NCBI GenBank assembly: GCA_963922205.1 | Contig: CAWUHX010000362.1 | Span: forward strand, 62,001 to 126,000 | DNA: 64,000 bases | From: Romanomermis culicivorax | Taxonomy: Eukaryota; Nematoda; Enoplea; Mermithida; Mermithidae | Reading direction: 5' to 3' | Part shown: positions 15,981-63,790 of the stretch, one piece after another | How the letters are laid out: every line of letters starts with the position of its first letter | Numbering within the stretch: the first letter of the stretch is position 1 | Translations under genes and position numbers: made by a program | Notes under the pieces: generated by a model | The model's database searches: none | The model's input: the letters and a program-made list of their open reading frames with translations, nothing else | Told to the model about the DNA's origin: nothing

Positions 15981-16501
15981 CACTTTTTTTCCACGAACTC
16001 GTTTCCACAAATGTGGAAAGGGGTCAAATTTTTTTTCCACATGTGGAAAAAATTTTTGTCGTCTTAAAATCTTTGTTTTTCGCTTGAAAATACTCATAAA
16101 GGCTTTTTTGTGAGGTTGTCTACACAGCAAAAATGACCTGCTGATCTCAAATATAGTTATCAAATGCCATACTCTGATCAAAGTCGCCCCTGATTAAAGT
16201 CACCCCGCTTTACCTTAATATTAGATAGCCCGAGATGATGAAAACTATTAAAGATTAAATTGTAAGTGAATGTAGACATGCTAAAAGCTGCGCCTGAGCT
16301 TGGTAATAAATAATGATTATTAGAGTCATAACCGGCGCGCCGGAAAATTTTGAGATTTTGACCTCCTAAAATGCATCGAAATGCATCTTTTCAATATTAA
16401 AGCCCAAAATTTGTCTTCCACATTTGTGGAAAGACCTCAAAAAAATTTTCCACATTCCAGACTTTTTCCACATTTTAGTGCAAATGTGGAAAAAAACAGT
16501 G
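15981..16501. mobile_element. hAT-W copy, word TTCCACA
   Basis: Starts CACTTTTTTTCCACG and ends GTGGAAAAAAACAGTG. The words ttccaca and tgtggaa recur at both ends, in pairs forming palindromes such as tttccacaaatgtggaaa, and the core shares ataaccggcgcgccgg with the full copy at 62697-63655. The flanking 8-mers (CTTCTCCA and CTCGGTAG) do not match, so one end is probably lost or rearranged. Confidence 0.75.
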
Positions 16502-16954
16502 CTCGGTAGTCGGTTTGCCTTTGCCTTTTAAACGCAGAGAAACCTGAAAATTGAGGCGTGACACCCAAGACGGTTGGGCCCAGAACCCAAATATTGCTAT
16601 CCCCACCATACCCGTATCCAGGATTTTTAAAAAAGGGTGGAATTTTTCAAAAATTTTTTGGAATTTACTGAATAAAAAAAAATCATTTTTGCAGTAAAGA
16701 CGACTTACTTTCAGTTAGTTATGTGTGCTTGAATTAGTGGCTAAATTCTTTGTTTGACGAAAAGTATGTAAATGTAATAATTTAATTTGGAAATTGTGAT
16801 GTATAAGTACGATAATGATATTGCTGAAAATTCTTTTTTAAAAAAAATTTAGGGGAAATTTCCCCTCTTCCCCCTCTAAATACGGGTATGATCCCCACCG
16901 AGCTTAGTCGAAACTCTGAAAATTTGGCCGAGTGAATTTTTGTGTTTTGGGAGC

Positions 16955-17192
16955 CAGTGTTTTTTTTGCACGAGCTCTTTTGCACGGTGCAAAAAAATCA
17001 CCAAAAAAGTTTTGCACGCCAAAAAAATTTTGAAATTTGGACCTACTAAAATGCACCAAAATGCATCTTTTCTATATGAAAATACCAAATTTTTTTCCAC
17101 AATTGATAAATATTTTTTTGCACAGTGCAAAAAACCTGAAAAAAAGTTTTGCACGAGCGGAAAAAGTTTTGCACAGTGCAAAAAAAACACTG
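16955..17192. mobile_element. hAT-W copy, word TTGCAC, with 8-bp TSD
   Basis: Starts CAGTGTTTTTTTTGCACG and ends GTGCAAAAAAAACACTG. The flanking 8-mers are TTGGGAGC (16947-16954) and TTTGGAGC (17193-17200), matching at 7 of 8. Six or more ttgcac/gtgcaa words fill both ends, several as palindromes (ttgcacagtgcaa). Short terminal inverted repeats with an 8-bp TSD are hAT features. The core ggacctactaaaatgcacc is shared with the other hAT-W copies. Confidence 0.85.
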
Positions 17193-17365
17193 TTTGGAGC
17201 AATTTTTTGCCTCTTGTTGTGTTGATACGCACAGATTTTTGTGCACAAGATACACTGCCAATCGTCATGCCCTTCTTTTTTTAGCCAAGTATCGCGGTTT
17301 GCTAACGAAACTTTTTTTCCATGTTTCATACATAATATAAATTTTGGTCTATCGCCGTAGATATA

Positions 17366-17662
17366 ACAGACTTCCGAGGTCTGGAGGCTCAAGCGAATTT
17401 TTTTCGGGCCCGGGGTCAAAGATTTTTCAAAATTTTAGGAGATCCCTAAAGGCAAAAAAATCGATTTTTTCGCCAATAAAGTTCGGAAAACGGTTCAAAA
17501 ACTAGTAATTTTGTCAAAAAATACGTGAAAAATGTGTTCCTTTCGCGCAGTGCCGAGAAAATCCGCATTTTTTACCATTATTTGTTCAAAAATTGATATT
17601 TTTCATCAAAAGAATTGACATCTTTTAGTATTTTTCCGGCCTCGCCCCTAATTACATGTATA
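17366..17662 (+). mobile_element. MITE-B copy
   Basis: Runs from ttccgaggtctgga to attacatgtata. The internal blocks gcgcagtgccgaga and ttgttcaaaaattgatattttt match other MITE-B copies. The first terminus is eroded. Confidence 0.65.
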
Positions 17663-17845
17663 CCTATCAGCCTTCAAGGCCACCTTGTCGACATTTCATC
17701 CAAAAATACAATTTTACGCGTATTAAAACGAAAAATACTAAAACGAGTAGTGTTAGAAAAAATCAGACACTTGAAATTTCGAATTTTCAGTTGGGTGTAC
17801 GTGTTATTACTCATTTCTTATTTCAGATCCAGGAACAGCTTCATT

Positions 17846-20800
17846 ATGACTTTGCAACCTGTTCAGCCTTTTAATTTCGGTATCGGTCCTATATCTTGCC
17901 ACGCATGGAACAAAGATCGCACGCGTAAGTTCTCTCAAACAAATTCGTCGTTCCACTAAAGCTCTAAATTTACAAGAAAAAAGCAAAATTTCAAAAACCG
18001 TTAGTCTTTTTTTTGTCGTAAAAAAAATTTGAACTTTTCAGAAGTCGCTGTTTCGCCCAACAATAACGAAGTGTACATTTTTGCCTGGAAGAGCGGTCGA
18101 TGGGATCGGCAATTCGTTTTAAGCGAACACGATTTACCCATTACCGGTATAGATTGGGCGCCAAATACGAATCGTATTGTTACTTCTTCGCAGGTTTTTA
18201 TAGAATTTTCTTAATTTGAATCGAATTCAGAATATTTCATTTCAATTTTGAGGATAAAAATGCTTTTGTTTGGACTTTCGACGGTAAATCTTGGAAACCT
18301 GAATTGGTAATTTTACGGCTACAACGAGCGGCGACGTGCGTTAAATGGTCGCCTCTAGGTGAAAAAAATTCTATTTTTTCCCCGATTAACGTAATTATCA
18401 TTTTTTTCTCAAATTAAGAAAATAAATTCGCAGTCGGCAGTGGTTCGAAACTCGTCTCCGTATGTTATTACGAAAAAGATAACGATTGGTGGCTTTCTAA
18501 ACAAATAAAAAAACCGTTCAAATCGACGGTTACGTCGTTAGATTGGCATCCGAACAACGTCATTTTGGCTGCAGGTTGTTGTGATTTTAAGGTTAGTAGA
18601 ACATTGTTTAAATTTTTTACAAATCCTAGGAACATATCTTGGCAATTGGTTCAATTGTATTCAAATCGTACCATAGCGAGCTAGTTCCCGGCACCAAATC
18701 GAAGTTCGTGTCAGGGCTAATTTGATAACACTACACAAAACAGTTTTACGCTGATTCTTTCTCCACTGTTTCCCAGAAGTGTCTAGACTCTGGAATAAGC
18801 TTGAAAACCAACTTTGATTGTATCGTGTCTATTTCCTAAGCGTAATAAACAGACCTAGAAAAATCAGGAAAAAGATTATGCATGAAAACAACGGAAAAGT
18901 CATGGAATTTCCCCAAAAATTCTTATGATGTTTTAGAAGAAAAATATGGTGGTCAAATCGAAAAAGTTGCTCTAGGCTGGGTTTTAGAAGGTCAAAATCT
19001 GGAATTTTTTTGTCGCACGATATATTTATTTATTCAAATTTGGCTCGAACCCGACAGTTGGGAAGTCTAGTACCATTACTCAATTGGCTTTCACTTGTTT
19101 TGTGCATCTATTTCATCTATAAACATTTATATAGTGCCTTCAATGAGATTCAAACTTCTCTGTTGATCATATTTCTATTTATTCGCACTTGATGAATATT
19201 AGGAATTACGATGGTCATAGGCTAATGGGAGTAAAACATTTCATAAATTTCAAAGCACATTTTAAAAGCTTACTTTTCAGTTTTTCCAATGTCCAGGCTC
19301 AAATAGCTAAATTCTGAAACATGTTCATCCAGTCAGTCTTTCATTACGTTCACTCAAGTGAAATTTCAAAATTTAGCATGACTTTCACTCATAGTACATG
19401 TTAGGGCTGTTTCGAGTTCTTGAACTCGATTAAAACTCGACAATTTTGGCAACTCAAACTCGAAAACTTCGAAATTTCAAACTCGAACTCTATTTTTTTC
19501 AACTAACATGTTGATTTTTGTCAATTTTTCAAAGTTTTTTTTGTAAAAAAATCGACGTTTAGTATTTTTGATTTAAGCCAGTCATTATTGGAGCAATTTG
19601 GCTGAAACTTTGCAGTTTTTATGCCAGATGTTTTCCTATCGATGACAGGAAACCGAATTTTAAAAGCTTCACCCCTTTGGAAGCCATGAAAGTCAGTACC
19701 GGTCGCCTTTTTTTGGCTCACCCTGTATTACTAGGAATAAAAAGGACTTTTATAATACACCTACTCCTTCACTATACCGAATTTTATGCTAAATAACTTG
19801 ACCGTGTAGGTACCTGGTTCGTTTGTACCAGGTGCATAATAATATTGACTAGCATTTATATAACAAAATGACTGCTTATATACGGTAGTGAACTACTCGA
19901 ACTCTACTCGAAAAATTTTTAAAACTCGAACTCGAAAACCTCGAAATTTCAAACTCGAACTCGACATTTCTAAAATCCTCTGATCGAAACAGCCCTAGTA
20001 CATGTTACGGGGCCCCGAGGACTGGGGTGTCGGTCGGGCGACTTTTTTCCGGCCGGATATCAATGATTCCCCAAATTTCAGGGGAGAGTCTCTGCAGTAA
20101 AAAATTCGACTTCTTCACCGAAAGAGTCCCAAAAACGGTTCGAAAAATATTAATTTTTGTCTTGAAAAACTGTCAAAAATGCATTTATGGCGCGAAGCGA
20201 CGTTAAAATTGACGTTTTTTAAGCCATTTTTCTTCAAAAATTGACGTTTTTCAGTATTTTTCCGATCAAAAGTATGGGCACTAGTTATTGTGTTGGAAAA
20301 TTCTGGGAGGTCGTCCAATGGCTAGTCATATGGCCGGCGATTTCTGGGTGTTCCTATAGCGCTGCTTTCATTTTAAGAGATTCTTTGCACGTATAACATT
20401 TATTTCACTGTACCTGACCAATTTAGAAAAATTACAATCAATTTTCTCCGTTGATTTTGAGAATTTTCCATATGAGTAACAGTGTAATGCAACAATACGT
20501 TGAAAAAGCACATTCGCATCTATTATAAATATTTTTGAGCAGAAAACCTGTTTTGAAAAATCTTTTACGTATTGAATAAAATCTGGCTCTTTTACACCTC
20601 TACACTATTGTGGATAGAAAAAATAGAAAAAACAGTGATTCTTTGTACAATAAAGCTGTCAAAGTGTTGAAAAAGAGTTCCTTAAAGGAAAATGAATAGC
20701 CACTGAGAAAAAAATTAAGATTTGTGTCCGGAAAAAAATTGTCAAGCTTGCAAATCGCAAAATTGAAACAAAGTGAAAATATTTTTTAATTAATTCGATA

Positions 20801-23800
20801 AAATTTTGTTATGATTATTTGTATGCTTCATACGTGTTTACAGCATCTGCTACAAATTTTAACCATATCTGTGCGTGGTAAGTTAGTCTGGGGAAGATAA
20901 AAGTCGGATTTTGTCAGGGTAATAAATGGTTTTGTTCGAGAAGAGCCCAAGCGAAGGCTTGTACGGCGAAAATCCGAGCTCCTGTCGAAAAAGTGGAAGG
21001 CAGAACAGCTTCTGGGTTAAAAATTCCGGTAGCAACATATGGTTTAAAAATCTCCAGCAGTTAAGGTTTTGTATTAATTACTGTTGATTTTCGCTCTAAA
21101 AAAACTGAAATTCTGCAAAATGTGTAAAACCTAGAAAAGTCAGGGAATTTCATTTTGGTAAACTCTTGGGCACCCTGGTTAACATCCCGTTCCCTTCCCT
21201 AGTTTGGCTTTGGCAAACAACTTTCGGGTTTCTAGTTGACTGGTACCGAACGATTGTCCGTCATGAATTTGTCCTCATATACCAAGTGGCTTCCAAAACT
21301 CTAATTTTTTCGCACATGCTTTCTAGGCCAGGGTTTTCTCCGCTTTCGTCAAAGAAGTCGACAGCGATAAAGTCGCGCCGTCGCCTTGGAGTATCAAAAT
21401 CCCACCATTCGGTCAGCTGCTCTCAGAATTATCTAACGGTGGAGGTGAGTCTTCGATAAAAAAAATATTCCCATGCTTGATATCTTTGAATTCGTGAATT
21501 TTTTTAGGTGGTTGGGTACACGACGTAAAATTTTCGCCATCAGGAAATCGTTTAGCTTGGGTTGGGCACGATTCTAGTTTATCGGTGACGGATTCGAGTT
21601 TGAACGACGAGTAAGTTTCCATTTGCAATATTGAACCGAAAAGCTGGAGGTTTTACAGAGATTTCGTAAATAGGATTCGTAACGTCATTTCGATGAGCGG
21701 GACAAAAATATCAATATTTTGACAGGATGTTTTGTGAAATTTTTAATGAAATTAGTTCAAAATCACTCAAGGCAATCTTGACAACGGAATTTAAGGCAGG
21801 CTTTTTCCGCTTTTGGAAAATTTGTATAAATTTTTCGCCCTGGACTGAACCTGTTTTTCGAGAAGTTCTAGAACACCAAGTTTTTCGGCGCTTTGTTCAA
21901 GATAAATTAATAACTGAATTGGTGTTGAAAATCGAGGCCGCAGCCATGAAGGTCACTTGTCTCACTGTAAAATTGCTAAATGTTGTGGAACCTGGGACAA
22001 ACAAATTTTCGATTCAGAAGTTAATTCTTGTTGACATTCTTACAAGAATATTCCCGAAATTCTGCGAATGTTTGCATTTGTAAAACCATTGCAAATCTTC
22101 TGTTGAAAATTTTTTCAATTTGACGATTTAGTTCAATCTAGACAGAAATTTAACATGGAACGTGTTACGATAAACCCAGTCTTCTTTTATTCATAGTGCA
22201 GTGTTTTTTTGCCGTGCATAAAAATTTTAGCTCAGTTTCTGCAAGAATAGAAAGTTTTGATTGAGAAGTTGTTGAAGTTTCGGAAGTTTCTACCGATTGA
22301 ATCGATAAAAAGGTGTGATTTTTTGACGCTTTAGCGAGTAAAAACCCCCAAATTTTCCGTCACTTCGCGCCGGAACTTGTTTCCTCATTTTCCCTAAGTC
22401 GTTTTTCGCTTAAAAATGCCCATAGACGCATTATTTATGTATTTTTGAGCTTTTTCAAACTTTCTGCTGTTTTTTAAAGCCGTAATTCATTAAAATTTAA
22501 GAAACATTTGAAATTTTTGAGTTAGATCGAAGTGTAATCAACAAGCACTGTGGAACAAATTTTCCAGCAAACTATCCAAGAGCATAGTTACTTTGAATTA
22601 CATGAGAAATCGATGGCTAAGTCCTCTATGATGACAAGTGAGAGCCCAAAAAAGATAGTAATCTTTCCGACGCGAAGCGCCGGAAAAATTTTTTGGGTAT
22701 TGACTTTTCGCGACACTGGAAAATCAATTTTCCGAACATTTATTTCAAGAATTACATTCGAATTTTGTGTTCATAAGTCATAATTTCTAGAATTTTATAT
22801 TCGAAAAATTTTCAAACCAGTAATTTATTCGCAAACTGTCATGAACAAGATATGAGTAAGAAGAGTAGAAATTTCCGAAAACTACTTCCATGAAGCTTTT
22901 GGATCGACTTTACGTTAAGAAAGGAATAATCGCTTGAAAAATTTTGCCGACTTGACGTATTGTTCCTTCTCGAAAAATGTGTCGAGGAAAAAATGTGTAT
23001 GTTCATTAAACATCAAGAATTAAAACATGAGATAATACGTTGAAGATGATGAAAACTATGAGATTAAAATTAAATGATAAGCCTTACATACCTGAGCTAG
23101 GAAATAAATAATAATGCTTATTAAAGTCATAAGCGGCGCGGAGCGCCGGAAAATTTTGAGATCATGACCTTAGATGCACCAAAATGCATCTTTTCTGTAT
23201 TCGATGTGATCAAACACCTAGCTCAAAAAATTCTGCACCAGTGCAGAAATCACCGAAAAAACTTCTGCATGAAGCCTAAAAAGTCTGCACTGTGCAGAAA
23301 AAAAACATTGCTTGTCAACAGGGTTTTTTCCGCACGCCTTCATCCGCACCGTGCGGAAATGACCAAAAATTTTTTCCGCACACGAAAATTTTTTCCGTTC
23401 GAAGTTTAAATCATTTGAAAAATGTGTGAAATGAGCGAAAATTATAGATTGCTAAGAAAATAATGGAAAGTATCGGTTTTTCTAGCTCAAAAACATTATT
23501 TCAGATTGATTGAGCAAAATTAATAGTTGCTGCTGTCATTTCTGTGATTAGAGCTGAAGATTTATAGATTTCAATTGATTCAATTTCTACATTTTTATAT
23601 TCTAGAATGCTGGAAAATGAGCCTTTTCAACCTTTATCTCTAAAATAAAAGGTTTTCATTTCCAGCCGAAAATCGTGTAGTTTCCCAATGACAAAATCAA
23701 CAAAATCCGAACCTATAGTCCAGACTGCCCCATGGGGAGAGGTATGAGGGGGGTATTACCCTACCCAAAAATTGATCACTATTCACCAAATTCAGAGACA

Positions 23801-26800
23801 AAATGACGTGTTTAGTGGACATTTAGCTACACTACCCCCGCAAATTTTAAATTTTACCCCTACCTGAAAAATCTGACCTTGGGGACCTCTGCTATAGTCC
23901 GTTTTTTACAAAATGCATCCAAATTGAAGAAGTAACACGAATCAGTACTGTCTTATAAATCTTTAACATAGAGCTCTTGCTTTAAAATTTCTCACTCGAA
24001 AAATTTTAAAGGTTAGGTCAGTATGCTCACAAATTTTCAGTCCTATATGATATATTGTTTTTCAGAAAATCGTGAAAATCTGAAATACTACTTGCTTTCC
24101 ACCTTCATTAGTTAGAAGTATTTCAAGAAAAAAAGACTATAATACTGAAGATTACTAATTGATGAATGGGATGAGAAACTTCAAATCATGAAAACCATGC
24201 ACACTTAACTTCTGATGCGTCACACCAGAGAATTTTTGAACAAAGGAGCTACTGAAATGTTGATAATGTATTCTAGAGATAATTTGTAATACTTTCGGTT
24301 TAGATTTTTCCTGGAAAAGTGATGGTATTAAATAAATGTGTGGAGAAATGTAGGAAAAATCAGTAAATTCGTATGAAAATTCCAATTCACAGTATAAAGT
24401 GACGAGTTTTACTCACTCTAGCAGAGACATAAAGATTGATGGAAACAATCTGGCACAACCGAGAAATCAAACTAAATTTCTTCTTGGCTGTGCTTCAGCT
24501 TAATTGTAGTTAATATTATAAATTATTTTCATGGCCGGAAAAATTTGAGATTTTGACCATCTAAATTGCACCAAAATGCAGCTTTTCATCAATGCCAGCA
24601 GCAGAAACGCATAAAGAAATTTCCGTTCTGTGCGGAAAATGCCCAAAAATTTTTCCGCACAGCCCAAAAAAAGTCCGCACTGTGCGGAAAAAAAAACCCT
24701 GCTTGTCAACAGTCGAGAAGTTGCTGCAGAATAAATGCTATAATATCAGTGATAGAACTTTAACAATATCCAAACGTATAATATTTTTAGCATATGAAAA
24801 AGTCGTTTTATTATTTTTTCTTCGAAGATTTTCTCCGCATGAGAACCTTACCCGAAAAATATGCACACATTTTCCTGAAATATTCCACAATTTAATAAAA
24901 ACTCGTTCTATAATGGTCACAACTCACAACTATTTTATGTATGCTTTTTAAGAACTTACTCAATCATTTCGATGTTCCTTAAGTCAGAAATTCATAAACT
25001 GAGGAGCAAACAGAAAAAAATTTAGTCAGGTCAGTCGGATTCATATAGTAGAAGGAAGTGCCACTGGAACCCCCGCCCAAAAAAATCGTCGGCAGTATGG
25101 CTAGCCATGACGATCCTCATACTTTTGGTCAGAAGAATACGGAAAAACGTCAATTTTTTTATGGAAAATGACAATTTTTGAACAAAAAATGGTGAAAAGT
25201 GTCTGTTTTATCGACGCTTCGCGCAATGAATACATTTGCTACGAGTTTTTTTTGGACAAAAATTATTATTTTTCGAGCCATTTCTTGTACTTCTTCGGGA
25301 AAAAAATCGATTTTTTTCCTTCAGGAACGTCTCCCTAAAATTGTTGGCAGTCGATGACCCCCGATCCCGAAAAAGTCGCCGGAGTTCCCCAGACCACGGG
25401 GCTCCGTTACATGTATGGTCGGATTGTGCTTATAATAGACAAGCGGTGCTATACAATACTTGATCATCACTGAGTTAGCGTTCTACTCAACAGTTAACTA
25501 GAAATCTTATCTGAACATAATTCCTAGGATTATTATTTGGTGCAGAAGAAAGTTTGTTGCTCGCAGAAAATTTTTTTAGTCATTTCTGCACCGTGCAGAA
25601 GAAAGCCTAGATTCTAACCGAAGGTCCCCAAGATCAGATTTTTCAGGTAGGGGTAAAGTTGAAAATTTGCGGGGATAGTTTGGCTAAATGCCCACTAAAC
25701 ACTTCATTTTGTCTCAAAATTAGGCACCCAGCGGTCAATTTATAGGACTTAAGGTAGGGGTAATACCCCCCTCGTACCCTTCTCTATGGGGTTGTCTGTC
25801 TGATTCTAACCATACATTTAACGAGGCGCCGAGGTCTGGGGGTCGGGCCACTTTTTTTGGACCGGGGTCAGTAATTCCCAAAATTTTGGGGGCAGGGGTC
25901 TCTGAAGGAAAAAATTCGATTTTTCACGAAAAAAATCCGAAAAATAATTCAAAAAATAGTAATTTTTCCACAAAGACGGAAGGAAATGTATTCTTGACGC
26001 GAAGCGCCTAAAAAATTGACATTTTGACCCTTTTTTGTTCAAAAATTGACATTTTTCACTATTTTTCCGACCAAAAGTAGGATGTCCCTACAGCTACCAT
26101 ATAGCTAGCCATAGGATTGTAAAATCCTGGGGAGGTCGCCCAATGGTTAGCCATATGGTCGAAGATTTATGGGGGTCTCCTGCAGCACTTCCCCCCAATG
26201 ACATGTATGATTCCAACTGTAATTTCACTGTCGGCTATCACAAAAATGTTTTTTTTAAATCGCATTATATAAAAATGAGAAGTAATTGGGTAATTCACAA
26301 AACTGTAATCTAAATTTTAAAAAATGTTGCTTTCGCATGTCGTAATATATACTGTCTGGATATCAGTTAGCAGCTCTTTTTGCGACTAAGGTATGAGTGT
26401 TTTAAATTTTTTAGCAGCTCGAATACCAACCGTAACCTGAATAATTTCTCTGATATAATATCTTCGTTATTCAGTGACGCGGATTTAACCTCACCCTCAC
26501 CGCATGATGTTAAATCATGTACGTCGAGCAGTAAAATTTCGAAAAAGTAAATTATGCGTTATAAATGCGGTTTGTAAACACTAATTTTTGTTTTTTACTC
26601 AATTGTGTATATTTAAAGTAGTCAGTTTGTTGAACTAGTTGAAATTAGAAGAAATTCCTTTAGTGCATGTTTCGTGGGCATGTTGTTAACCTTTTTTACG
26701 TCCTTTGTACCTTGCTTTTATACACAAAATTCTTCCCTTTTCAGCATAGCAACAGTCAAAGAATGGTATTTACCTTTCACGTCATTGATATGGGTGTCAG

Positions 26801-31494: not shown

Positions 31495-31817
31495 AGTTTG
31501 GAACGCGTCACAATATTATATATATATATGCAGGCTGAAAAGAATCTTTATACCATAATCGGATGAATGAAAGCAACAAATGCGATCCTTTATAGCTTCA
31601 ATTTTCTTCTCCCCTCTTCGTTAATTTATTCATTAACGTTTTACTTATTATCCTATAAATCATTGTTCCTTATTTTTGTTTAGCATTTTTATTAAATATT
31701 CGTTTTTTGTAAAAAGCTTATTTATTATTACGGAGCTATTGTTTTTATATAAAATTGTTGCTGTTCGATCAAATTAAGGGGAAATCGATTCGAAAATATT
31801 TTACTATAAGGTAACAT

Positions 31818-34529
31818 CTAATAAAATAAATAATACAAAAATGCGGTCATCCAATCATTTTTCTTCACTTCGAAAAGGTCCCTATATTCCAGCGCAGCGT
31901 ATCTTTCTTGGAATTTATTTTCTCTAGCTAATAAAATATTAATTATCGATTGATCGAACCGATGACAATTAGAATAATTGGCGTACGTATCGCCGCCGAA
32001 CGTGCAATGAATCTTTGAATTGGGTGGCGAAATACAATTATCGTCCAACGAGCATAAAATCCAAGGAATTAACAAATTTTCTTTGACTTCTTTCGTACCG
32101 TGAATCAATTGAATGCCGGCTTCGTACATTGTTCTATTTTTAAGCTTTTCTGACAATGGGAAATATTTGTAGACAGCCGGATTTGTGGCGACTTTGATAT
32201 TGTGTCGAGCGGATGAAAACATCAGCCAAGGATATGTTGGGCACGATGCTCTGAAAAATGTTGCGAAATATATGTATACAGGGTGAGCCAAAAAAATCTG
32301 CTGACTTTTATAACTTTTGAACGGATAACGCTTTTTGAATACGGATTGCTGCATTGGAATGCCCTGCTTATCTTTGATAAATCGACCGAATTTTATGCTC
32401 CTAGCATTAATGGTTACTGCACAAACAGAAATTTAGTAGAAGTGGTCATTTTTGAAAAAGTATAAGTTCACAAATCAAAGTAAAAGTTGTCCTATTGTGA
32501 AAAAAAAATTTGTAAAGTTGATAACACAAAATCACTCAGATTTGTAAGTTACACGTAATTTACAGTCATCAAATTCTTGTTTCAAGATGGGCAAAATTTC
32601 GTCAAAATCAATAAGTTTTGTTTTGAAATTGAAAAAAAGAAAAATCAATTCAGTCATTGACCAGATCGAAAAACGATTAAAATCATTGACGAAAGAGAAA
32701 GTAGGACACACTAAAACGTCTCTCTACATAGTTTCCAGCTGTAATATGGTTTTCATGATTGGATCTATTGTACTCTTTTGTTGCAAAACATGTTGATTTT
32801 GTCCATTTTTCAAAATTTATTTGCAAAAAGACCGACGTTTAGTATTTTTGATTCTAGTGAGTCAATATTCGAGAAATCTTGCTGAAACTTTGCGATTTTC
32901 ATGCCATATGTTTCATCTATGGACGACAGGGAACCGCATTAAAAAAACTTCACTCGTTTGAAAGCTATGAAAGTCAGTACCGGTCGCCTTTGTTTTGCTT
33001 CACCTTGTATGATCAATTTAGACAACTAACATTTCTATACTCCATTAATTTTGCAATGGTCGATGCAGCGAGGTTGCAGCCAAACTTGCATATAAAATTA
33101 TGGAAAGCTACTTGACCCTATTCAATAAATTTTCCTTTTTGATACAGACTCCTTGATTATTACTCTTTTCAATCAATCCAAGATTATCCAAATTGATATC
33201 CTGATCTCTAGTAAGGCTGCATTCGCCGAAACTCCGACCGCTGCATCGGTCATTTTAAAATCAATGGTGTAACAATATTCTAGCGCAAAATAGTCATTTT
33301 CAAACTCACTTGCAAGCCTTGAATAGATCGAAAATGGGTTTCAACGATTTCTTGATTACGATTGACGAATCTAACCATAAAACGCTCGAATAATTAGTCA
33401 ATTCTAAACCGATAACTATCGATTTCCAGCGACATTCGTGTAAATTTCGAACGCCGTGAGGCAACAATTCGAACTTTAATTTTTTGATCTCGACAATTAC
33501 GTCGCTGTACGACGATTTAAGGTAATCGATTCGATATCGGCTGAAGATAAATGAAAAAAAAAAACTTTTTAAAGGGGAAAAAAATTAAAGTCGTCTACAT
33601 AAATTCACAAATTTTTTTTTCAATCGACCATTTTTGAGGAATTTTTTTTGAAATTGAGGAAAATTTTATTGTGCTTAGGCGTCATTTCGGGAAAAAATTA
33701 TTTAAGTTCATACTTTTATAGAATGTCAGTCGTGATTATCTTTCCAGAAAATCCCTTTGCTTTATTATTTTCCAACATTAACCAAAAGAAGAGAAATGGT
33801 GAGAATCTCAGTAGTCATAAAAATGTTCATTCTAACCATTTCGACGATCAAATGGAAGTTGTAACATCTGCTCAAGCCAAACCCAAAATTCATGATGATG
33901 ATGAATTTGACCGAAACAATTATTGATGTAAAAGCGCGAGAAACGTTCAAAAAACATACCAGAAAAGATTTAAAACGATTTTTAAGTAAAGAAACTAAAA
34001 AATTGTCTTTTCCTCGTGAGGAAAAAATTTTTGAGGTTTTTCTTCAAATGGGGCAGAAAGTTTTCGGAAAAAATAAACACTGCACACATAAAAACGCATT
34101 AGTAATTTTTAACGAAATTATCTTACCTTTAAATCTTTACCTCAGTCCTAAATCGTACAATACCACAATTCTACGATTCCCAAACCATTTCCGAATACTA
34201 TTTAATAGTGAAATTGCTTCGTGGTAATGATTATCGGAAAAGGCGCTGACTAAAACCGGTTCCATTTCGAATATAGTTCTTTGGTCGTCATTTTGAAAAT
34301 TGGAAGACAAATTAATACCTATCTTGTAGAGCGAATTGATTGATTCGAGCCAATCAGCTCTAGATTTGATGACAAAAAAGTCAGCGGCATAATTGTTCTT
34401 GTCGCCGGTTCTGCCGCGAAAAATGAAAAATATCATCGTAGCGGCGACAAGAAAGATAAATACTATTCGCCTATTTGATCGGTGAAATCGCATTGATGAT
34501 CGGAAAAAAGCCAACACTGAATGATTCAT
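31818..34529 (-). CDS. Type II membrane protein, putative glycosyltransferase-like
   Basis: Three exons, 34529-34141, 33540-33310 and 32250-31818, give 1053 nt (350 aa). Residues 22-37 form one hydrophobic anchor after a short basic N-terminus, followed by a lumenal domain, the layout of Golgi glycosyltransferases. Segments I recognise as typical of an animal family of uncharacterised proteins (DUF1647-like, from memory) are VVLYDLGL, HECRWKSIVI, SVLWLDSSI, LIPWILCSLDDNCISP and NCHRFDQSIINILLA. The WLDSS segment could play the part of a DXD-like sugar-nucleotide site, but no catalytic residue is established. Several NxS/T sites lie in the lumenal part. The gene starts 319 bp downstream of the Duox stop on the same strand, without obvious functional link. 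The second intron consists mostly of a mariner-like element. The gene structure is well supported; the function is not. Confidence 0.85.
32277..33009 (+). mobile_element. Mariner-like non-autonomous element
   Basis: Starts TACAGGGTGAGCCAAAAA and ends GCTTCACCTTGTA. The ends are an imperfect inverted repeat inside TA dinucleotides, as in Tc1/mariner elements. The last 220 bp match 19510-19730 (cgacgtttagtatttttgat, gtcagtaccggtcgcc). No transposase is recognisable. It begins 26 bp from the splice acceptor of the last exon of the minus-strand gene and makes up most of that intron. Confidence 0.7.
33541..34140. other. First intron of the type II membrane protein gene
   Basis: 600 bp of intron. 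Two plus-strand open frames of 92 and 111 codons (33648-34227) overlap the exon on the other strand and show no domain; I treat them as chance. Confidence 0.6.
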
Positions 34530-34848: not shown

Positions 34849-37800
34849 TTACATAAAAGTTTCATATCTGTGAATAAAATTGGGTTTCTTCCGCAAACTA
34901 TTCACAGCCTCGCAAGCTTCTTTCACGCTAGTGTTCAACATGCGCGGCCCACAACTGAAAACGCCTATTCGTCGAACCTAACGAAAATAATATTAATAAT
35001 TGAGAGATTTGATTTTTCAAATAAGAAATATACATCTGATGCAGGTTTTTTAGCACGGTCCTAAAGAAACCTGAGCCCTGCTAATGGAAATTTTTGGACG
35101 TTAGCACGCCTACTAATGACTGTGAGGGAGAAATTTTTGATAAAAGTTCCAGAAGAAAATTAAGGATATCACCAAATTGTGGTGAAAAATCAAAAATCCT
35201 TGTTATCACAAATAACTACTTCGTCAATATCCCCATTCCTTTCGTCACTTTTGCATAGTGAATGTGACTCGAATTTTAATTCGCTTCTTCTCTAACCCCT
35301 TGGACACTATTCAGGAGCTGTTTTGACGTATGCTGAAGTTTAGGCAAATTTTTAATAGTGAGTAGCAAATACAATAATACGTTTTCTGAAAAAATCAACC
35401 GAGAACCTGTATCGAAGTTGAAGTGCAGTTCCGGATACAATGAAAGCATGTAAACTTTTATCCAAACAGAACGCAAATCTAGCGATTCCTAAAAGTATTA
35501 CTATGAAACTAACCACTGAAACTTTACTTGTCGGTCAACTACAGATGCATAATGTAAGAACGAAGCTGATTCAATTGGGGAGTCCTATTCCTTCTGAAGG
35601 TACCAATATCAAGCATCATTCCATGAACTTATTTAAAATAAAAGCATGTTTGCAGAATTGACAAACTCACACATTAGTTTGATACCAACAAAATAACATA
35701 TGTCAACCGTACTGACTGTGCTAATGAAATATTTTTTCATTAGCACAAATGTTAATGGCAGTCGTGCTAAAAAACCTGATTTGATGGCACTTACGTCTTG
35801 ATGTTTTTGTCGGATATGTTGCAAAAAAGATTCGAAATTAGGTCGGCCGAAGTGATTAACAGCTTTCAAATTGGTGAACATGCTCCTGCCTTCGGAGCAC
35901 TGGAAATGTTTCTCGCAAATATACTGAAATGTAAAGGATGGAATGAAATAAAATTCTATTTGTGACATGTGACAAAATAGCCAAGATTTTCGTAACTTCA
36001 ATGTGCTGAAAGGCACGTAATCTATAGGCGCGAAATAAGTACATACATGCACATCATACATGTAACGGAGCTCCGAGGTCTGGGGGGGGGTTGGAGCACT
36101 TTTTTGGGGCCGGGGGTCAGTAATTCCCAAAATGTTGGGGGGAGGGGCCCATGAAAGAAAAATTCGATTTTTTCCATGAAAAATGTCCGAAAAACGGTTT
36201 GAAAAGTAGTAATTTTTGTCTAAAAAATTATAAAATATGTACTTATGGCGCGAAGCGCCGAGAAAATTGACGTTTTTGACCATTTTTTGTTCAAAAATTG
36301 ACATTTTTCATGGAAAAAATGACATTCTTCAGTATTTTCCCGACTAAAACTATGAGGGTCCCTAGGGCTACCATATGGCTAGCCATAGGATTGGAAAATC
36401 CTGCGGCGGGGGGTCATCCAATGGCTAGCCATATGGTCGACGTTTTGTGGGGGGGGGGGTTCCCATAGCACTTCCCCCCCCCCCAATTACATGTATGATG
36501 CACATGGGGGTTTGATGGAGAAGTCTGGAGCAAGAACAGATTTTGATTGATCCTCAGCATCCTAATGACCCCAACACATCCGACCATCCAGCATTGATCA
36601 AAAAGATGATGAAGGAAAATGAGAAAAGAAGAAGAGAAAGACGTCATAAGAATGAAAATGATGCTGTAGCTCAACGATTTTTTAAAACAAAGCATACTTG
36701 AATACAATAGGGTAAAATTAAAAGCTTAAGGTGCTAATCAAGCAAACACTTTTCACATATTTGAATAATATATGCTGCTCAGATTTTTTAAGTTTTGCTT
36801 TTCTATCAAGAAAGGAAAAAAATCTCCGACCCATCCTGTGGACCTCAAACATAATTTCCATTCTGAATTAAGAAAAGTCGAGACCAACGTTCTCAATGAT
36901 CAGGGAATAATCTTCAATATTTAAAAAAACTAAAAATTTGGCCATAATCAATAAGGACAAGTATTTATGGTTAAATTAGGTTGAATGTCATTTGGAAACC
37001 AGTCATTACACATAGAAAGGAAAAACAACCGCATAGTATGCAAATATGGAAGAGAACGATAAAGCATATGTAAAACAAAGGATGTAGAATAGGAAACAGA
37101 CCAGACGAGTGATAAAATTAAAATGAAAAATCAAAAAATTAAAAAGTGAAAAATTTTACTCACCAACATTGTCGTTCTTAGGTCAAATTTGTGGAAAAAC
37201 TGCGTAATAAAAATATGAATTTCGAGAATGCGCTGCAAATCTTCTTCTTCAACTTTGCGCAACGTTTCGACGAACCATTCAAAATTTTTGTGCGTCGGAC
37301 AAACCCACACGTAATATACCTGAAAAAAATCTAATACTGTCAAGTCCCAAGTTCCAAAATTTAAAAAACTGGAAAATAAGTTTCAGGACAGGATACTAAA
37401 AATACCTTTTTACAAGCTATTTCAGAAAACTTCGATCCAGAAGTGGCCTGTATCAAATCATTCAGCATAGAAGCGTAAGGTGTGACGCCGATTCCGCCTC
37501 CGACCATAATAGCGATTTCGTAATTCCTCCACTCTTGATTCCCACCTCCGTAGGGACCATCCATATAAATCTAAAGCATGTTGTATTGAAAAGACGACGT
37601 TTATCCTAAATAAAATGTAAATCTTTTCAATAATTACCGTCGGATATTGGCCTATCGTGTGATGTACGTGGGCTATTTCATGCTTTAATTTCCACGTCCA
37701 GGGGCCCTGAGCTTTGACGTAGATTTCTAGGAATGGTTCTTGCGGCGCCGAAGCCAAAGAGAAGGCGTGCCATTCGTTAAAATTGCAGCCCAAAGCTGGG

Positions 37801-40800: not shown

Positions 40801-43800
40801 TGAATAATAATCTGCAAGAAAGTTAAAGAAATTGAGAAAGTAGGTTGGAAGAATTCTGAAAGATATCATTAAGAACTTCTTGTTTCGAATTTACAACAAA
40901 TTACAAAAGACAATTTTTCGAATCAGAAAATCAAAATGATTTGGAGTTCAAGATTTAAGACTTATTTTTTCGTAAATCCTGTCAACTTACGCCAAAATCT
41001 TTCGAAAAATACGGCGCCATTGATCAAGAAGAAAATCAACAAGCAAGAAACGTGCTGACGATTATCTTCCAACCACGTGACGCAATTGTTGTAATATTTT
41101 CTCAATTTGGAATTCTCCATTTCGAACGGTATGGTGAAGCTGGAGACGCTTTCGCGTTCGCCCAAGCAATTTTTCGAACGGCTACTGTTGATCATGGTTC
41201 GACGGCCTTTCAAATGTAGACCCATATTTTTGGACACTTCGCTCAAAATGGCTTCGAAATCTTTTTGGGTCAGGTAATCTTTTTGTTTGGGGATGCCGCT
41301 ATTGAAAAGAATTTCTTCCATCAATGCTTCTTGATGGTCACCGTCCAATTTTGTGCCGCCGGCCGTCATAATTGACCTTTATAAATTAAAATGACATTTT
41401 CTAAAATCTAAATTAACAAATTCAAAATTTTAATTTTGAAAACTTTTTAAAAATCCTTTTCAAAATCAAAGACCAAATTAGCTGGGTGTCCTTTGTTTTC
41501 TGAAAGTATAGTTCGGAAGAATTTACAAAATTTATGGGAGTTTTTCTCATATAACAAAGTCATTTTAATCGAAGAGTCTAAAAATGAAGAGAGGATTACA
41601 CATAATAGATAAATCAGAAAATGATCCGTCTTGACCTTTTTGTACACTAAAAAATTTACAAAAAAGTTTGAAGCGAAAAAAATCGAAAAATCTTAATTCG
41701 AAATTTAGAATGAATTTCATTATAGTAAAAAATAGTCGGGATCGAGCAAATGGAGCATTTTTCGGAATAACAAGTTTGAAAGTTGAGAGAGAAACCTGGG
41801 GCGGGTATTACTGCATAACTAGATCTCAAGTCTGAGATGGAGCTTAAGACCGACTTGGTTAAGCTGGAGCTTAAGTCGGTATTACTAAAAGTTAAGCCGG
41901 TGCTGAGCAAGACAGACGAGCTAAGCTGCAACTTAACTACATTTTTATATCTTTTGTGTGGAAAGTTAAGATGGAACTTGGTTAAGCTATAGCTTATGTC
42001 GGTATTAAGAAGTTAAGCTGCAGTTTAGCAAAGCTGTTGCTGAGCACCAGCTTAACCTTTTTCATATGTTTTGCATTGGAAGTTAAGCTGTAGCTTAACT
42101 TTTTGTGTCGACATTTTTTTGTGCCTCTACGATGTTTATTAGTTTATTGTCTCTAGGATGTTTATTTTCTTCTGTGTGCATAATCCGACAGTAGTACCCA
42201 GTACCTATATGCATTGAACATATTGAAAAATACGAATATGGACAGCATATTTGTATAAATAAAGCGATTAGTCGTTATCGACTTTCTAGGAAAAGTTTCG
42301 CAACTTTTGTCGTCATCTTTTCCGTTGTCAATTTTTTTTGCACTTCTCCAAGCTTTTCGTCATGTTGAGTGGTAGTAGCCATTTTTGTCATCAAAACTTC
42401 GTTAATTTATTCATTCATCGATTCTCTTGCTGGTCTTATCAACGAAAACGAAATTCACGAAAAATGTGATTTCTACGAATTCTATCTTGACGTTCTTCTT
42501 CATCAAGCAATAAAACCAAACGAACAGCTATTATCATATAACAACATAAAATACGAACTTAAGACAGCTAGCTACCCACCAGTCTTGACTTTTTCACGTG
42601 AAATCGCAGCTTAAGCTCTTGCTTAACTTTCGTGATACTGGTCGGACTTAAGTCCGAGACCTAAGTTTGAATCTTAAGTCTATTGCTCAGCTGCAGCTTA
42701 ACAATTTTTTAGTAATACCGGCCAAGCTGGTGCTCAGCTGGGGCTTAACTTTTTCTATATCTTGTAACGTTGTAGAGACTTAAGTTGCATCTTAAGCTCC
42801 AGCTTAAGTCGCAATAGTAATACCGGCCCCTGGAGAACAGCAGAAAGATTAGATTCAAGAGAAGAAAAGAAAACAAACGGAATACATCATGAAAATAAGA
42901 GAAAGTTGCATACTGTAACTAAAAATAAATCAAAATCGGAGGTGAAAAATTCAGGGAAAAAAATAAATATTAAGAAAATAAGAGAAAAAATTCATTGACA
43001 AGTTTACACTAGTCCTATCAAAATGAGATGCCAAATTTTTTTCCTTTCTCGTCAGAAAAATATACCGATTCCGATTTTTGGCAATGACCGATTTTTGATT
43101 TTAATAATTGAATTTTTTTACACAATACGCATCAAGTGCGCTCTATTCATAATTTAACAAAAAAATACCTCATGAATTCGCAAAATTCTTCCCTATCGAC
43201 TCGTCCTTCTTCGTCGGGTAAACACAATAGATAAATAATTTCCAATTTCTCTTGCAATTGACCTTTACTAAATTTGACTACGGTTTCCAAAAAATCTTGA
43301 AAACTCATTTTGTTGCCGTGACCGCGCGTTACGACCAGAAACATACGTTCGATGAATAGGTCGTTTTCGTTCATGCCTAAAGCTTCGGCGAATTCGGCCC
43401 GATTTAGTGTAGTACGGAGGACGGCCGGGGTCGAGTGACTAAATTGAGCGCTTTCTTCGCTGGATTTCATTTGCGGGAGTTGAAATGCCTACAAAAGAGG
43501 AAGTTCTCATTTTAATTTAAACGAAGATACAGTATCTTATTTTACACCAGACGAGATGTACCTGAGCGTAAGCATCTCTGAAAAAATGCTCCAATTTTTT
43601 CTGACGCGTCTCTCTAGTTTCGGCCGCTTTGAGCAGGGCGTCAGTTCCTGTATGCGAGACTCTAATATTTCGGCCGTGAGTTTTCATCAATTGTTCAGTG
43701 TGTACCAAGAATTTGGCGCATTGACCTTCCGTTTCGAAGTGAAGAACCTTGAGCGAAAAGTTGAGCATAACAGTAAAAGTAAACAGCTGCCGCTCCGAAA

Positions 43801-52527: not shown

Positions 52528-52678
52528 ATCATTTGGGTCGAAAGTTTTCCCAAAAAGAGTCGAAAATTTTCGCAAAAAATGCACTTTTTCCCAATTTTTC
52601 CATGTTAGGAGGGGGTCGGGTAAAGTGTTGGCCAAGTTGGACGGGGGTCCCCCCAACCCCGCCCCAATTACGGGTATG
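52528..52678 (-). mobile_element. MITE-A fragment
   Basis: Reads gtcgaaagttttcccaaaaa, aagtgttggccaagttgg, then G/C runs and ends ccaattacgggtatg, the MITE-A terminus. The other terminus is missing. Confidence 0.7.
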
Positions 52679-52907
52679 GTTTCATCGATTACCAAATTTC
52701 AACCGAAAAATCGATTTTGTCATAATTGGTGAAAAATGCAAATTTTTAATAATAATAAGTTTATTATGTCTAAATGTGAGGTAAAATGGTTCAAATTAAG
52801 CGAACATGTGAATTAAACGAAGGTAAACTACAGTAAATAAGGAACGTAAACGTAATAGGGTACGCAGCTCACAGATGTAACATCTAATGCACACCCCCCC
52901 GTGAATT

Positions 52908-53108
52908 TCATATTTGTAGAAACTTAAGTTTATCCTGAAATGAGTGCAAACTAGAGTCATTAACAACTTCAGTTGGTAAGGAATTCCAAGTACTGATGTA
53001 TCTATTAAAAAAACCAAATTTAAAAGTTGAACCGCGAGCAAAATTTTTAATTAGTTTAAAATTGTGTTTCTGGCGAGTGACATTGACATTTAAAGAAAAA
53101 TTTATCAA
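52908..53108 (-). pseudogene. LINE reverse-transcriptase C-terminal fragment
   Basis: About 66 codons open on the minus strand with the tail signature of jockey/CR1-like ORF2 proteins: an RQKHNFKL segment, then FFNRYISTWNSLP and VVNDSSLHSFQDKL. No polymerase motifs are present, so it is a 5'-truncated copy. After the stop comes a gcacaccccccc stretch like the one after the related fragment at 56839-57030. Confidence 0.75.
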
Positions 53109-54708
53109 AATCTAGGTGTGATTTACCACGTAATGTTAAAGATCATAGAAAGAGCAAAAGATATGCTACAAAATACACTACAGGCTGATAAAAATGTAAA
53201 TCATACGGTCAATATAATTGATAGAATGGAAACCTACTGGCATATTCGTGATCAGCATCATCGAATTATCCGTAACATAATCACAACAAATGCAAATTTC
53301 AAAAAAAAATTGTGATAGGACACCCTCCAGTCAAAATATTCGATTTTATGTAGAACTAGTGACATATTCGTAATCAGCATCATCATTTTAGTCGGATATA
53401 TGAAAATTTGGGAAAATTTTGGAACAAAAATTCCGTACTCCGTTTTAAGACTTTACACTAGTTAAACAAGTTCCGTCCGGGACACTTTTAGCCGCATTTA
53501 ACGTCAAATCGCACCGGAAAGATATAACATAGAAAGTTCACGCGATATCACGCGGGCGCTTTATTGGGCAAAAATGTTGCGCAGCCCGCAATTTAGTCGC
53601 GATGTGAAAAAGTCAAAAAATAATGTCGCACGAATCGAATTGCATGCATAGCGATCGAAGAGGCGTCAAGATCGTATTTGATGAAATAAAATTTTGACTT
53701 TACAAATTTCACAGTAAATTGGTAAGCTATCGGCCGTAGCGTAAACCTGCGAGTCGAACCTATTGGTCGACAACTTATGCAACAAACAGGGAATAAAAGC
53801 AGAGTACGGCAACATATGAAAGAAATTTCATTCGATAAAAAACTGGCCAAAATTTTGTATTATGGCCGGCGGCCGACTTCATAAAAACTTGAAATTTTTC
53901 CTAGTCATTGAAAACGATGCATATTCTATACCACGTAAGTATATGTTTTACAGGTACAATATAAAACGCCGTAGCAGCCGGTACGGTAAATTGAATTGCA
54001 AGGTCTTTTTTGTCATATTATAGTACATACTGTAGAATATGGCCCATTTCACAAACCACGCATCACGGTATTGGGAGATTGCAAATATTATTATCATTTG
54101 AACTGGTTTATTTTGCAAAGATTGAACCACTTTCAGATGAGACGGCAGGCATACATAAGTACAATGAAAAAATTCTTCTGATTTTTTATGCAAGTATCAG
54201 TTTGATCGAACAGACCGTCGAATAAGTCTTCTGGCAGATCATCTTTTCACAAATGATCAGCGTGAAATCCAAAAAAGTAAAAGTGAAAAAAAGTAAAAAA
54301 AGTAAAAAAAAAAAAAAATTTCACATTTTTACCACTTCCAGTTAAATCAGAGGTGCTGCTGGGTTGAAAATTGGGCATACTATTTGAGTATAACATCAAT
54401 TTTTAAATGAAAAATGAAGTGTAAAAACCCTTTGTTTAAGCGTTTCTGACGAAACTTATATTTTTAATACATGTCATGGGTTCGCAAAAAAACATTTCCG
54501 AGCTCGAAATAAGATTGATTTTTATTATGGTATAAACACAAGTGTTAAACGTACTTGGACGTCGACTAAATTCCACAGGTTTACTGTAATGAACAGCACG
54601 ACCAATCAACTTTTTTTACCTTTATTTTGATTTTATCGCACGTCATTTCATTTTGTAATATTTTTTGGTATCTTGCATTGTATAATTTCTCCGTACTTCC
54701 CTTCATCG

Positions 54709-61468
<6,760 letters not shown>

Positions 61469-62329
61469 TAATCACTTAGAAATATTCTTTGTTTACAGTG
61501 TACACCAATTTCTATTTTCTCATTTTATTTCACGCGCATTCATTTTCTGTATGAATTATTATGTTTGTTTCCTGTATATCAATCAAGAGCCAAAATCTGT
61601 AATGTTTTGGGTCACAATTTTGAAAATTATTTTAATTTTTTTTCATTCTTTAATTCTTTAGTTTTAAATTTTTTTTGATGAAATTGAGAGCTTCAAAAAA
61701 TTTACCGCGAGCGTCTTTTCAATATGAATTTTTTTCGCCGCGATATGATGAACAAATTTCTACGTTTTTTCTTTTCGAGCTAACGTTTCCAGAATGTCTT
61801 TACTTGTGAGCTGTGCGGCAGTTCGTTTTACGAATGCATTTCTCTAGCCTTTTTTTCTAAATAAGACCGTGTGACATATGTAATATCTTGGATTGAAATG
61901 CAAATGAGACGGAGTGAGCATAAATATCCAATAATTTTCTCGCTGGTTTTCTTGTGGTCGGATTAATTCAATAATCGCAGCTCTATAAGCAATCTGACAT
62001 GCTGCCTTTATGGCCAGATTCTTTTTTTTTTATTCTCCGCTTGGCCTTGCCTGCATCCTGTTCTTGGCATTTGATTAAACATTCAGAACTCTCCGGACAT
62101 CTGGAAACGAAGCTATTCTACTTATTATTCATTTTATTTCATTATTTCGCCGTTGCATAATATTAATCAATTTTGTGTCGTTACCTATGACCGGTACGTT
62201 CTTCTCTGTCATCATGTTCTGTTAGTGAAGTTCGATAAAATACATTAACCTTGAAGACGAAATACGTCATTACTGTAGTTTCTAACCGAATTCCATAAAT
62301 TTACTGCGTTTTTTTCTACGTCTTCTCAG
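61469..62329. other. Rab35 3' flank
   Basis: The 3' untranslated region of Rab35 should start here. The stretch is T-rich. I do not see a canonical AATAAA close to the stop and do not place a cleavage site. No further gene was recognised to the end of the window. Confidence 0.5.
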
Positions 62330-62410
62330 CACTGCTTTTTCCACAAATGTGGAAATAAGTCAAAATGTTTTTCCACATGTGGAAAAGTTTCTGTCTTAAA
62401 ATCTTATGAA
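62330..62410. mobile_element. hAT-W start fragment, word TTCCACA
   Basis: CACTGCTTTTTCCACAAATG followed by tttttccacatgtggaaaag, the start of a hAT-W element, then unrelated DNA. It is a truncated copy upstream of the pile-up at 62479-63663. Confidence 0.65.
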
Positions 62411-62486
62411 TTACCAGAGAAACATGTAAATATATGATTGTATGACTAGAAATTACAATGAAACGCCTCCCCACTAGGGTTGGGAC

Positions 62487-62688
62487 CATACCTGTACTTG
62501 GGGGGGGGGTTGGGGGACCCCCCCCCAACTTGGCCAACCCTGTACCCAAAATCATTTACCCCCCCCCCCCAGTTAGGAAAAAATTGAAAAATTTTGGCAA
62601 AAAGTTATGTTTTTTTGGCCTTTTTTGGGAAAAATTTCGACTTTTTTCTACCCCCCCCCCTTAACTGGTCGGAGGTCTTACAGGTATG
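62487..62688 (+). mobile_element. Complete MITE-A, perfect 8-bp TSD
   Basis: 202 bp. Ends are CATACCTGTACTTGG and GTCTTACAGGTATG (10-bp perfect inverted repeat). The TSD GTTGGGAC is at 62479-62486 and 62689-62696. Internally it has long G and C runs and gggaaaaatttcgactttttt. No open frame. The right TSD copy is also the left TSD of the hAT-W element that follows. Confidence 0.92.
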
Positions 62689-62696
62689 GTTGGGAC

Positions 62697-63655
62697 CACT
62701 CGTTTTTTCCACCAACTTCTTTCCACAAATGTGGAAAGGGGTCAAATATTTTTCCACATGTGGAAAAGATTTTTTTCGTCTTAAAATCCTCGTTTTTTCG
62801 CTTAAAAATGCTCACAAACGCATTATCGCACTTTTTTGAACTTTTTCAAGCCTTCCGGTGTTTTTAGAGAAGCTAATTCATTAAAATCGAAGAAAAAATT
62901 GAAATGTTCGACTTTAAAGCCTAATCTACAAGCATTGTTGAACAAAATTTTCTAGCAAACTATCCAAGAGTATAATTGACTTGAATTACACGAAAAATCG
63001 ATAGTCAAGTCCTCTATTATGACAAGTGAGATGCTGGAAAATCAATTTTCCGAACATTTATTTCAAAAATTAGGTTCCAAATTTGTGTTCAAAAGTCGAA
63101 ATTTCTTGAATTTTACTTGAAAAATTTTAAAATCTGTAATTTATTTGTAAACTCTCATGAATTTGGTCGAAAATATATGAGTAAGAAGAGTATAAATTTT
63201 CGGAAGATATTTCCAGGAAGCTTTTGAATCGATTATATGTTAGCAAAGAAATAATCGCACCAAAAAGCGTAGAGACTTGACGTATTGATCTTTCTCAAAA
63301 GAAAAAAATGCGAATCTTCATTAAATATCATGATAAAATATTGAAGATTACCAATTAAAACATGAGATACTACGTTTAAGATGATGAAAACTAATATAGA
63401 TCAAGTGATAAATGAAGGTAGACATGATAAAAGCCGCGCCTGAGCTACTTAATAAATAATAATGATTATTAAAGTTATAACCGGCGCGAAGCGCCGCAAA
63501 ATTTGGAGATTCGGACCTCCTAAAATGTACCAAAATGCATTTTTTCAATTTGAAAACCGCAAATTTTTTTTCCACATTTGTGGAAAGACCTCAAAAAAAT
63601 TTTCCACATTCCAGATTTTTTTCCACATTATAGTGCAAATGTGGAAAAAACAGTG
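62697..63655. mobile_element. Complete hAT-W element, word TTCCACA, perfect 8-bp TSD
   Basis: 959 bp. It starts CACTCGTTTTTTCCACC and ends GTGGAAAAAACAGTG. The TSD GTTGGGAC is at 62689-62696 and 63656-63663. The left end has two full palindromes (tttccacaaatgtggaaa and tttccacatgtggaaa). The right end has a palindrome, two half-sites and a final tgtggaa. The core carries caaactatccaagag, cctctattatgacaagtgag and ccggcgcgaagcgccg, shared with other copies. There is no transposase frame. Confidence 0.9.
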
Positions 63656-63662
63656 GTTGGGA

Positions 63663-63790
63663 CAGTGTTGAAAACTTTATGCCCCATTTGAGGAAAAACC
63701 CCAAAAAATTTTTCCTCATGAGGAAAAATCAATTTTTTTAGTTTCCTTGCTTAAAAATCTCTCTAAATCGTTTCTGATGTTTTTTTTTGA
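63663..63790. mobile_element. hAT-W start, word CCTCA
   Basis: Begins cagtgttgaaaactttatg at the right TSD of the previous element. It has cccatttgagg and cctcatgagg palindromes where the other copies have their words, then gcttaaaaatctctctaaa as in the family core. It may run on to or past 63790; its far end was not found. Confidence 0.6.

Follow-up and report, generated by a model that had tools for sequence, protein, structure and literature searches.

Subterminal words agree within most copies of hAT-type MITEs in the Romanomermis culicivorax genome and may be recognition sites of different transposase lineages

The window, the whole 64,000-nucleotide stretch of DNA analyzed here (G000:C362:62001-126000), contains exons that we take, by eye, to be ARPC1-like and Rab-like, together with a hAT-like family whose members are termed W elements. 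Lineages of W elements were designated by the letters A to H, each with its own end word. Reading of the sequence confirmed the words, palindromes, T and A runs, and tips of the copies that the original prediction had placed in the window. Its list of copies was incomplete: the H copy (TTAGCAC) and a second TTCCTCA end at 33955-34079 fit the same pattern and were absent from it. The elements were located as follows.

15981..16501, plus strand: A copy with word TTCCACA and a partial deletion of the body; matches itself at 100% and also matches family members; a flanking duplication was looked for and none was found
16955..17192, plus strand: B copy, word TTGCAC, duplication TTGGGAGC/TTTGGAGC (7/8)
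19402..19997, strand not assigned: MITE of a second hAT group, CGAGTT/GAGTTC words, tips TAGGGCTG/CAGCCCTA, GTACATGT duplication on both sides
22380..23310, plus strand: C copy with right-end word CTGCAC, truncated on the left near 22380 (left edge approximate)
23319..24701, plus strand: D copy, word CCGCAC, 8-bp duplication CTTGTCAA/CTTGTCAA, with a nested element at 23721-23891
33955..34079, minus strand: F-type end, word TTCCTCA
35042..35778, plus strand: H copy, word TTAGCAC, duplication ATCTGATG/ATTTGATG (7/8)
57670..57830, plus strand: E core and right end, word GTTGCAC; the left end was looked for in the window and not found
62330..62410, plus strand: solo A-type left end with word TTCCACA; the position of its right edge is approximate
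62697..63655, plus strand: A2 copy, word TTCCACA, 8-bp duplication GTTGGGAC/GTTGGGAC
63663..64000, plus strand: left end of an F copy, word TTCCTCA, running into the window edge

Short terminal repeats of the CAGNG kind are typical of hAT elements. The W tips were CAGTG and CAGGG, apart from CACTG in A and CATAG at the right-hand end of G. The 8-bp target-site duplication expected of hAT elements was found, with 7-8 of 8 bases matching, around A2, B, D, and H in the window and at 12/22 C/G-core loci with ends located. Duplications of 7-8 bp are also made by the P superfamily; a search for PF21787 (P-type transposase) gave 0 matches in the genome and 0 in the control genomes too, and is hence uninformative.

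Elements of other kinds were also present in the window. At 41800-42825, TTAAGCT/AGCTTAA repeats were densely packed between TAATACCGGCC-like ends, and we regard this as another element with one uniform word. Two MITEs with perfect 8-bp duplications were seen, one at 16607-16890 (CATACCCGTA tips, duplication ATCCCCAC) and one at 36055-36497 (CATACATGTAA tips, duplication ATGCACAT, GGCTAGCC palindromes inside). More W-like ends with other words were noted by eye, namely TTTGCC at locus L047 near 522-700, TTTGTAC at L078, and TTTGTGCCA at L008 and L077.

The 359-Mb R. culicivorax assembly (595 contigs) was searched with patterns in which the word letters were left free, and the same patterns read backward served as controls. 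The right-end pattern of palindrome, A-run, and tip (TTNNGCACNGTGCNNAAAAAAANNCTG) gave 44 matches in the genome, all of which were listed (backward control, 0), and the two arms were equal in 39 of them, counted by eye. The central palindrome pattern (TTTTTCNNCATGNNGAAAAA) was found at 1009 places (control, 0), and 44 of the 50 listed were symmetrical by eye. Three NNGCAC half-sites gave 322 + 300 = 622 matches (backward control, 0). Among the first 100 listed, all three half-sites agreed in 68 copies (34 CC, 26 CT, and 8 TT, with 16 pairs possible), against a mean of 15 and a maximum of 27 in 5000 shuffles; the other 32 were not uniform. Two of the three standard words were mixed in 16 of the 100, and another letter pair stood in at least one slot in 17. 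Three TTCCNCA half-sites gave 453 + 465 = 918 matches (backward control, 0). In the 71 that were printed, 65 agreed (55 A, 10 T; shuffle mean 39, maximum 48) and 6 did not, 2 of these being T-A-A mixtures.

The expectation that words within a copy agree more often than by chance was thus borne out (68/100 and 65/71); because the copies share ancestors, these figures count copies rather than switching events, and the shuffles demonstrate agreement within copies, not many independent switches. The stronger statement that nearly all slots of a copy carry the same word applied to most copies, but not to the 32 of 100 that were non-uniform or to a mixed copy at L043. A scan for word-bearing tips yielded 30 from all the DNA retrieved, compared with 1 from that DNA reversed and 0 from each of five shuffles; decayed tips escape it, and the window and the 20 sampled regions account for 7 of the 30. 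Since the A query contained its word, its matches are biased toward TTCCACA, and a shuffle test that includes those loci is not counted as agreement evidence. Chance repeats were ruled out by the shuffles and by the backward controls, which were 0 for all free-letter patterns. The observation on the words holds and is not due to chance.

A word-free query for the C core located 40 places, the window's own included (40 of 518 candidates scored), and of the remaining 39 we examined 20, namely those at ranks 2-14 and seven of lower rank. In the 135 bases past the core, 9 of the 20 had CTGCAC without ACAAGCC and 11 had ACAAGCC without CTGCAC; both were never found together. Other words were present besides at two of these loci: L034 had two TTCCTCA, seemingly from an inserted F end, and L048 had one TTGCAC. 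Both ends could be acceptably located in 12 of 22 loci (the 20 plus L015 and L021), comprising 7 G and 5 C copies. The same word was found at both ends, which lie up to about 1 kb apart, in 11 of the 12, the exception being L043, with CCGCAC at the left tip and CTGCAC at the right. G36 matched C45 at 86.7% over 811 shared bp, and the first 189 and last 91 bases of G had no counterpart in C at E 1e-3. The D core (word CCGCAC) was located at 40 places in the genome.

Body and core alignments connected most of the other lineages. C45 and A2 showed 75.6% identity across 820 columns, and a copy of the A left tip sits 84 bp inside C (C45 85-147 = A2 1-63, 78%). The B core matched A2 at 84% over 83 bp (B 70-151 aligning to A2 802-884). 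This match extends through a lone TTCCACA slot, at about 17100-17108 and just inside the right-hand words, and then switches to TTGCAC; the lone slot is a fossil of an A-type slot. The D right end matched C45 at 72.6% over 164 columns. The alignment of E22 with C45 spanned 61 bp only, and a similarity search of H against A2 gave no match. Thus, the grouping of all copies into one family is sound for A, B, C, G, and the D right end, which share a body or core at 72-87%, but too broad for E and H.

The left ends of A, F, and inner C (6 A, 5 inner C, and 2 F sequences, chosen) aligned as one scaffold in which the word varied: TTCCACA in A, TTCCTCA in F, and in inner C a fossil TTCCCCA in some slots with decayed forms elsewhere. 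Together with the B and C/G ends, this scaffold indicates two sources of word differences, stepwise change within a conserved scaffold and the gain of new outer ends. Spacers with the words masked also beat shuffles (z 6.4 and 8.9 for C-D, 6.9 for B-C, and 6.0 for A-B), but spacer-only alignment is weak, since G-D, H-D, and H-E, which are not thought to be homologous, reach z 4.5-5.7. Nested insertions were seen by eye, an F end lying within the C copy at L034 and a C-type MITE standing beside a transposase at L092 with CTGCAGAC on both flanks. The proposal that the slots were rewritten together accords with the body or core common to different words and with the one-base word differences in the kept scaffold. 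Rewriting in place does not describe B, C, and G, in which new end modules took the place of older ends or surrounded them; with the inner fossil words of B and C, these modules indicate that not every slot was rewritten in place.

To characterize coding capacity, frames of at least 55 residues in the W elements were listed and ten ORFs were compared with Pfam; two matches were obtained, both far below the cut-off, and no coding match resulted. The dimerization domain PF05699 had 1837 candidates in the genome, of which 150 were scored, and none of the 44 W tips (TTNNGCACNGTGCNNAAAAAAANNCTG) lay within 5 kb of these 150. With no cognate transposase found for the W words in this set, we infer that each word is the site of its own transposase lineage, as originally suggested, by analogy with other hAT genes here, which carry their own words in cis.

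These genes were analyzed through the DNA downstream of 35 transposases, a chosen set with several members for some lineages. In the 450 bp past the 3' ends, 19 of the 35 had 3-10 copies of one word and at most two of any other tested word, 3 had two copies of one word or palindrome, 5 had one copy, and 8 had none of those tested. The tested words, picked after the sequences had been read, were GGATCC, GGATATCC, GGTTTC, GGTTCC, GAGTCC, GAGTTC, and AAAACCT; a GGGTCC array close to L056 was noted only by eye. The tip CATC[CAT]CTA was found at 16 of the 35 ends and CAGCCCTA at one. Dimerization domains of the GGATCC, GGTTTC, GGTTCC, and L056 lineages were 38-60% alike. The free-letter pattern GNNTANNCGTTGCATCCCTA gave 54 + 61 matches (backward control, 0), and 80 of the 100 listed were symmetrical (51 GGG, 29 GAG; shuffle mean 45, maximum 63). 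When these 100 tips were compared with the 150 scored PF05699 matches, nine were at most 1500 bp downstream of a match and shared its strand, and one was placed otherwise. Three were GGGTACCC at 170-236 bp past the domain, five were GAGTACTC at 267-295 bp, and one was GGATACCC at 857 bp, GGGTACCC and GAGTACTC thus differing in distance from the transposase. The nine downstream tips indicate that tip and transposase go together in this second hAT group (tips CATC[CAT]CTA), in which PF05699 occurs in cis with the repeats and the arrays lie downstream. The group's 8-bp duplication was found in the one copy tested, the window MITE at 19402-19997 (GTACATGT on both sides), which shares its words with transposase locus L085 and its ends with the 3' end of that locus.

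Several further loci were noted among the other hAT groups. The dimerization domains of L051 and of L053/L057 were 85% alike and the downstream DNA was abruptly different, with TTCGTNNACGAA-like repeats at L051 and GGAGCGGAG-like repeats at L053/L057; either a word switch or a nested insertion might account for this. Two elements, L026:606-1902 and L026:3350-4656, had the same tips (CAGGGTTGGCAA), target-site duplications of 7-8 bases, and different uniform words (GGGTTTTT-like and GGTTTTT-like). AAAACCT arrays were found at transposase loci L065, L087, and L090.

The window elements are probably non-autonomous hAT-type MITEs of several lineages, each moved by a transposase recognizing one subterminal word; we place the probability of this reading at roughly 0.7. 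The word would act through several repeats per end, some of them forming palindromes next to A/T runs. Amplification would continue only for copies with slots that fit an active transposase, so that each burst would be uniform for one word. Words might change little by little alongside the BED finger, with the scaffold kept (TTCC[A/T/C]CA; TT/CT/CCGCAC). They might also change through new ends, probably by nested insertion and deletion, intermediate stages of which were not seen, and the old body would then be handed to another transposase (B, C, G). According to the available parts of the published reports, Hermes BED domains bind two subterminal repeats cooperatively as a quasi-palindrome and need an AT-rich stretch beside the motif (PMC10368747), and Tgf2 without its N-terminal BED finger loses end binding (PMC4890040). 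The W slots match the Hermes anatomy in having a word, an inverted word, and an A/T run, and by this analogy transposase recognition is the likely cause.

Other explanations were weighed against the same data. Homogenization of the slots by gene conversion or by copying between palindromes, without transposase selection, would give agreement within copies and one-base differences inside one scaffold. It is unlikely, because 11 of 12 copies have the same word at ends up to about 1 kb apart, yet spacers and bodies are not homogenized; moreover, fossil words in B and C were left unconverted, and transposase genes carry words of their own. It is also rather improbable that the words are lineage relics, now functionless, of a few uniform founders that were amplified. 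Copies within a lineage are close together, and shuffles cannot remove founder effects, but several lineages, and hAT groups with different tips too, show uniformity, and the words are placed where hAT binding repeats are known. CpG decay, rather than a recognition switch, is very improbable as the source of the CCGCAC and CTGCAC classes: CCGCAC does contain a CpG, and one of the most frequent changes in copies that are otherwise CC is to CT, but decay should act on the two strands alike and so produce CCACAC as well, copies agreeing on CT have spacers of their own, and the TTCC[A/T/C]CA series has no CpG. That the copies are unrelated elements with only A/T-run ends in common, which is true for H against A2 and nearly so for E against C45, is rejected for A, B, C, the D right end, and G by the 72-87% body and core alignments and is highly unlikely overall.

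Beyond recognition of single words by transposases, a broader and more tentative reading, which we hold possible but somewhat doubtful, is that each of several hAT groups, with tips that stay nearly constant, has broken up into lineages whose transposase and word co-change by one- or two-base steps, and that MITE bodies move from one lineage to another by re-ending and retain fossil words of their former masters. The word series concerned are TTCC[A/T/C]CA; TT/CT/CCGCAC; and GGATCC, GGTTCC, GGTTTC, GAGTCC, and GAGTTC. If true, the genome would amount to a selection experiment run by nature on recognition by BED fingers. Many matched protein-site pairs would be at hand if one BED finger corresponds to each word, and the recognition code of a little-studied zinc finger could then be learned. 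Fossil words would record which transposase earlier moved a MITE family, making the turnover of control between transposons readable from sequence.

Parts of this pattern are already known elsewhere, namely VANDAL motifs, Galileo chimeras and selective binding, and CACTA subfamilies; the following comparisons refer to the available passages of each source. Like W elements, Hermes and Tgf2 have subterminal repeats, which in them are bound by an N-terminal BED finger (PMC10368747, PMC4890040). Unlike W, they are described there as single elements with one motif each and no word series among relatives in one genome. Arabidopsis VANDAL elements also have repeated motifs, which are bound by an element-coded protein, VANC, and whose repeat units diverge together; unlike W, they are Mutator-type, the protein counters silencing and is not a transposase, and the motifs change via tandem repeats (PMC5735166). 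Galileo, of the P superfamily, resembles W in its chimeras, whose two terminal repeats come from one subfamily and whose internal region comes from a different one, and its binding domain binds best to its own subfamily's ends and weakly or not at all to some others. It differs in its long terminal repeats, and its passages contain no uniform short-word series (PMC3573991, PMC3688188). Soybean CACTA subfamilies share with W conserved tips and subterminal motifs that differ between subfamilies, and the authors suggest coevolution of motif and binding protein; they belong to another superfamily and have two motif types, with no shared bodies under different motifs in the sections available (PMC2613891). 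The hAT-derived CGGBP proteins are described as varied in specificity (PMC8097297). In the open-access literature, we found no account of a genome in which hAT MITE copies are each uniform for one word of a series, which does not prove that none exists.

BED fingers were compared at the positions equated with Hermes Q64, S66, N67, and R70 (residues from the available part of PMC10368747); positions were equated by counting from the first zinc histidine, and because Hermes is CCHC this mapping is approximate. Five related BED copies had G/A-G-C-K at these positions; a GGATCC array was read for four of them, and the fifth (C98) was without a word read. The BED copy of the GGTTCC lineage had S-S-N-K, with 23-26 of 52 residues alike overall relative to the five-copy set. 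The suggested comparison of BED residues between word lineages therefore yielded a difference between GGATCC and GGTTCC, but one lineage pair cannot prove a code. No BED finger was seen in the stretches read for L079, L080, and L081 (GGTTTC, GGGTCC, and GGATCC/GGGTACCC lineages).

Shortened BED frames were also observed. At L071/L063 (G000:C4:1129294-1129653), a BED finger directly precedes the dimerization domain in one 133-residue frame, with a second copy at C4:1143593-1143952. Because this frame has no room for a catalytic part, it is possible that it encodes a repressor made by internal deletion. Many PF02892 matches scored near 43.9 bits in short frames of about 63-90 residues, and their equal scores suggest a numerous deletion derivative retaining the BED finger. 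One such short-BED derivative, L078, has GGATCC words and contains the W-like TTTGTAC end inside.
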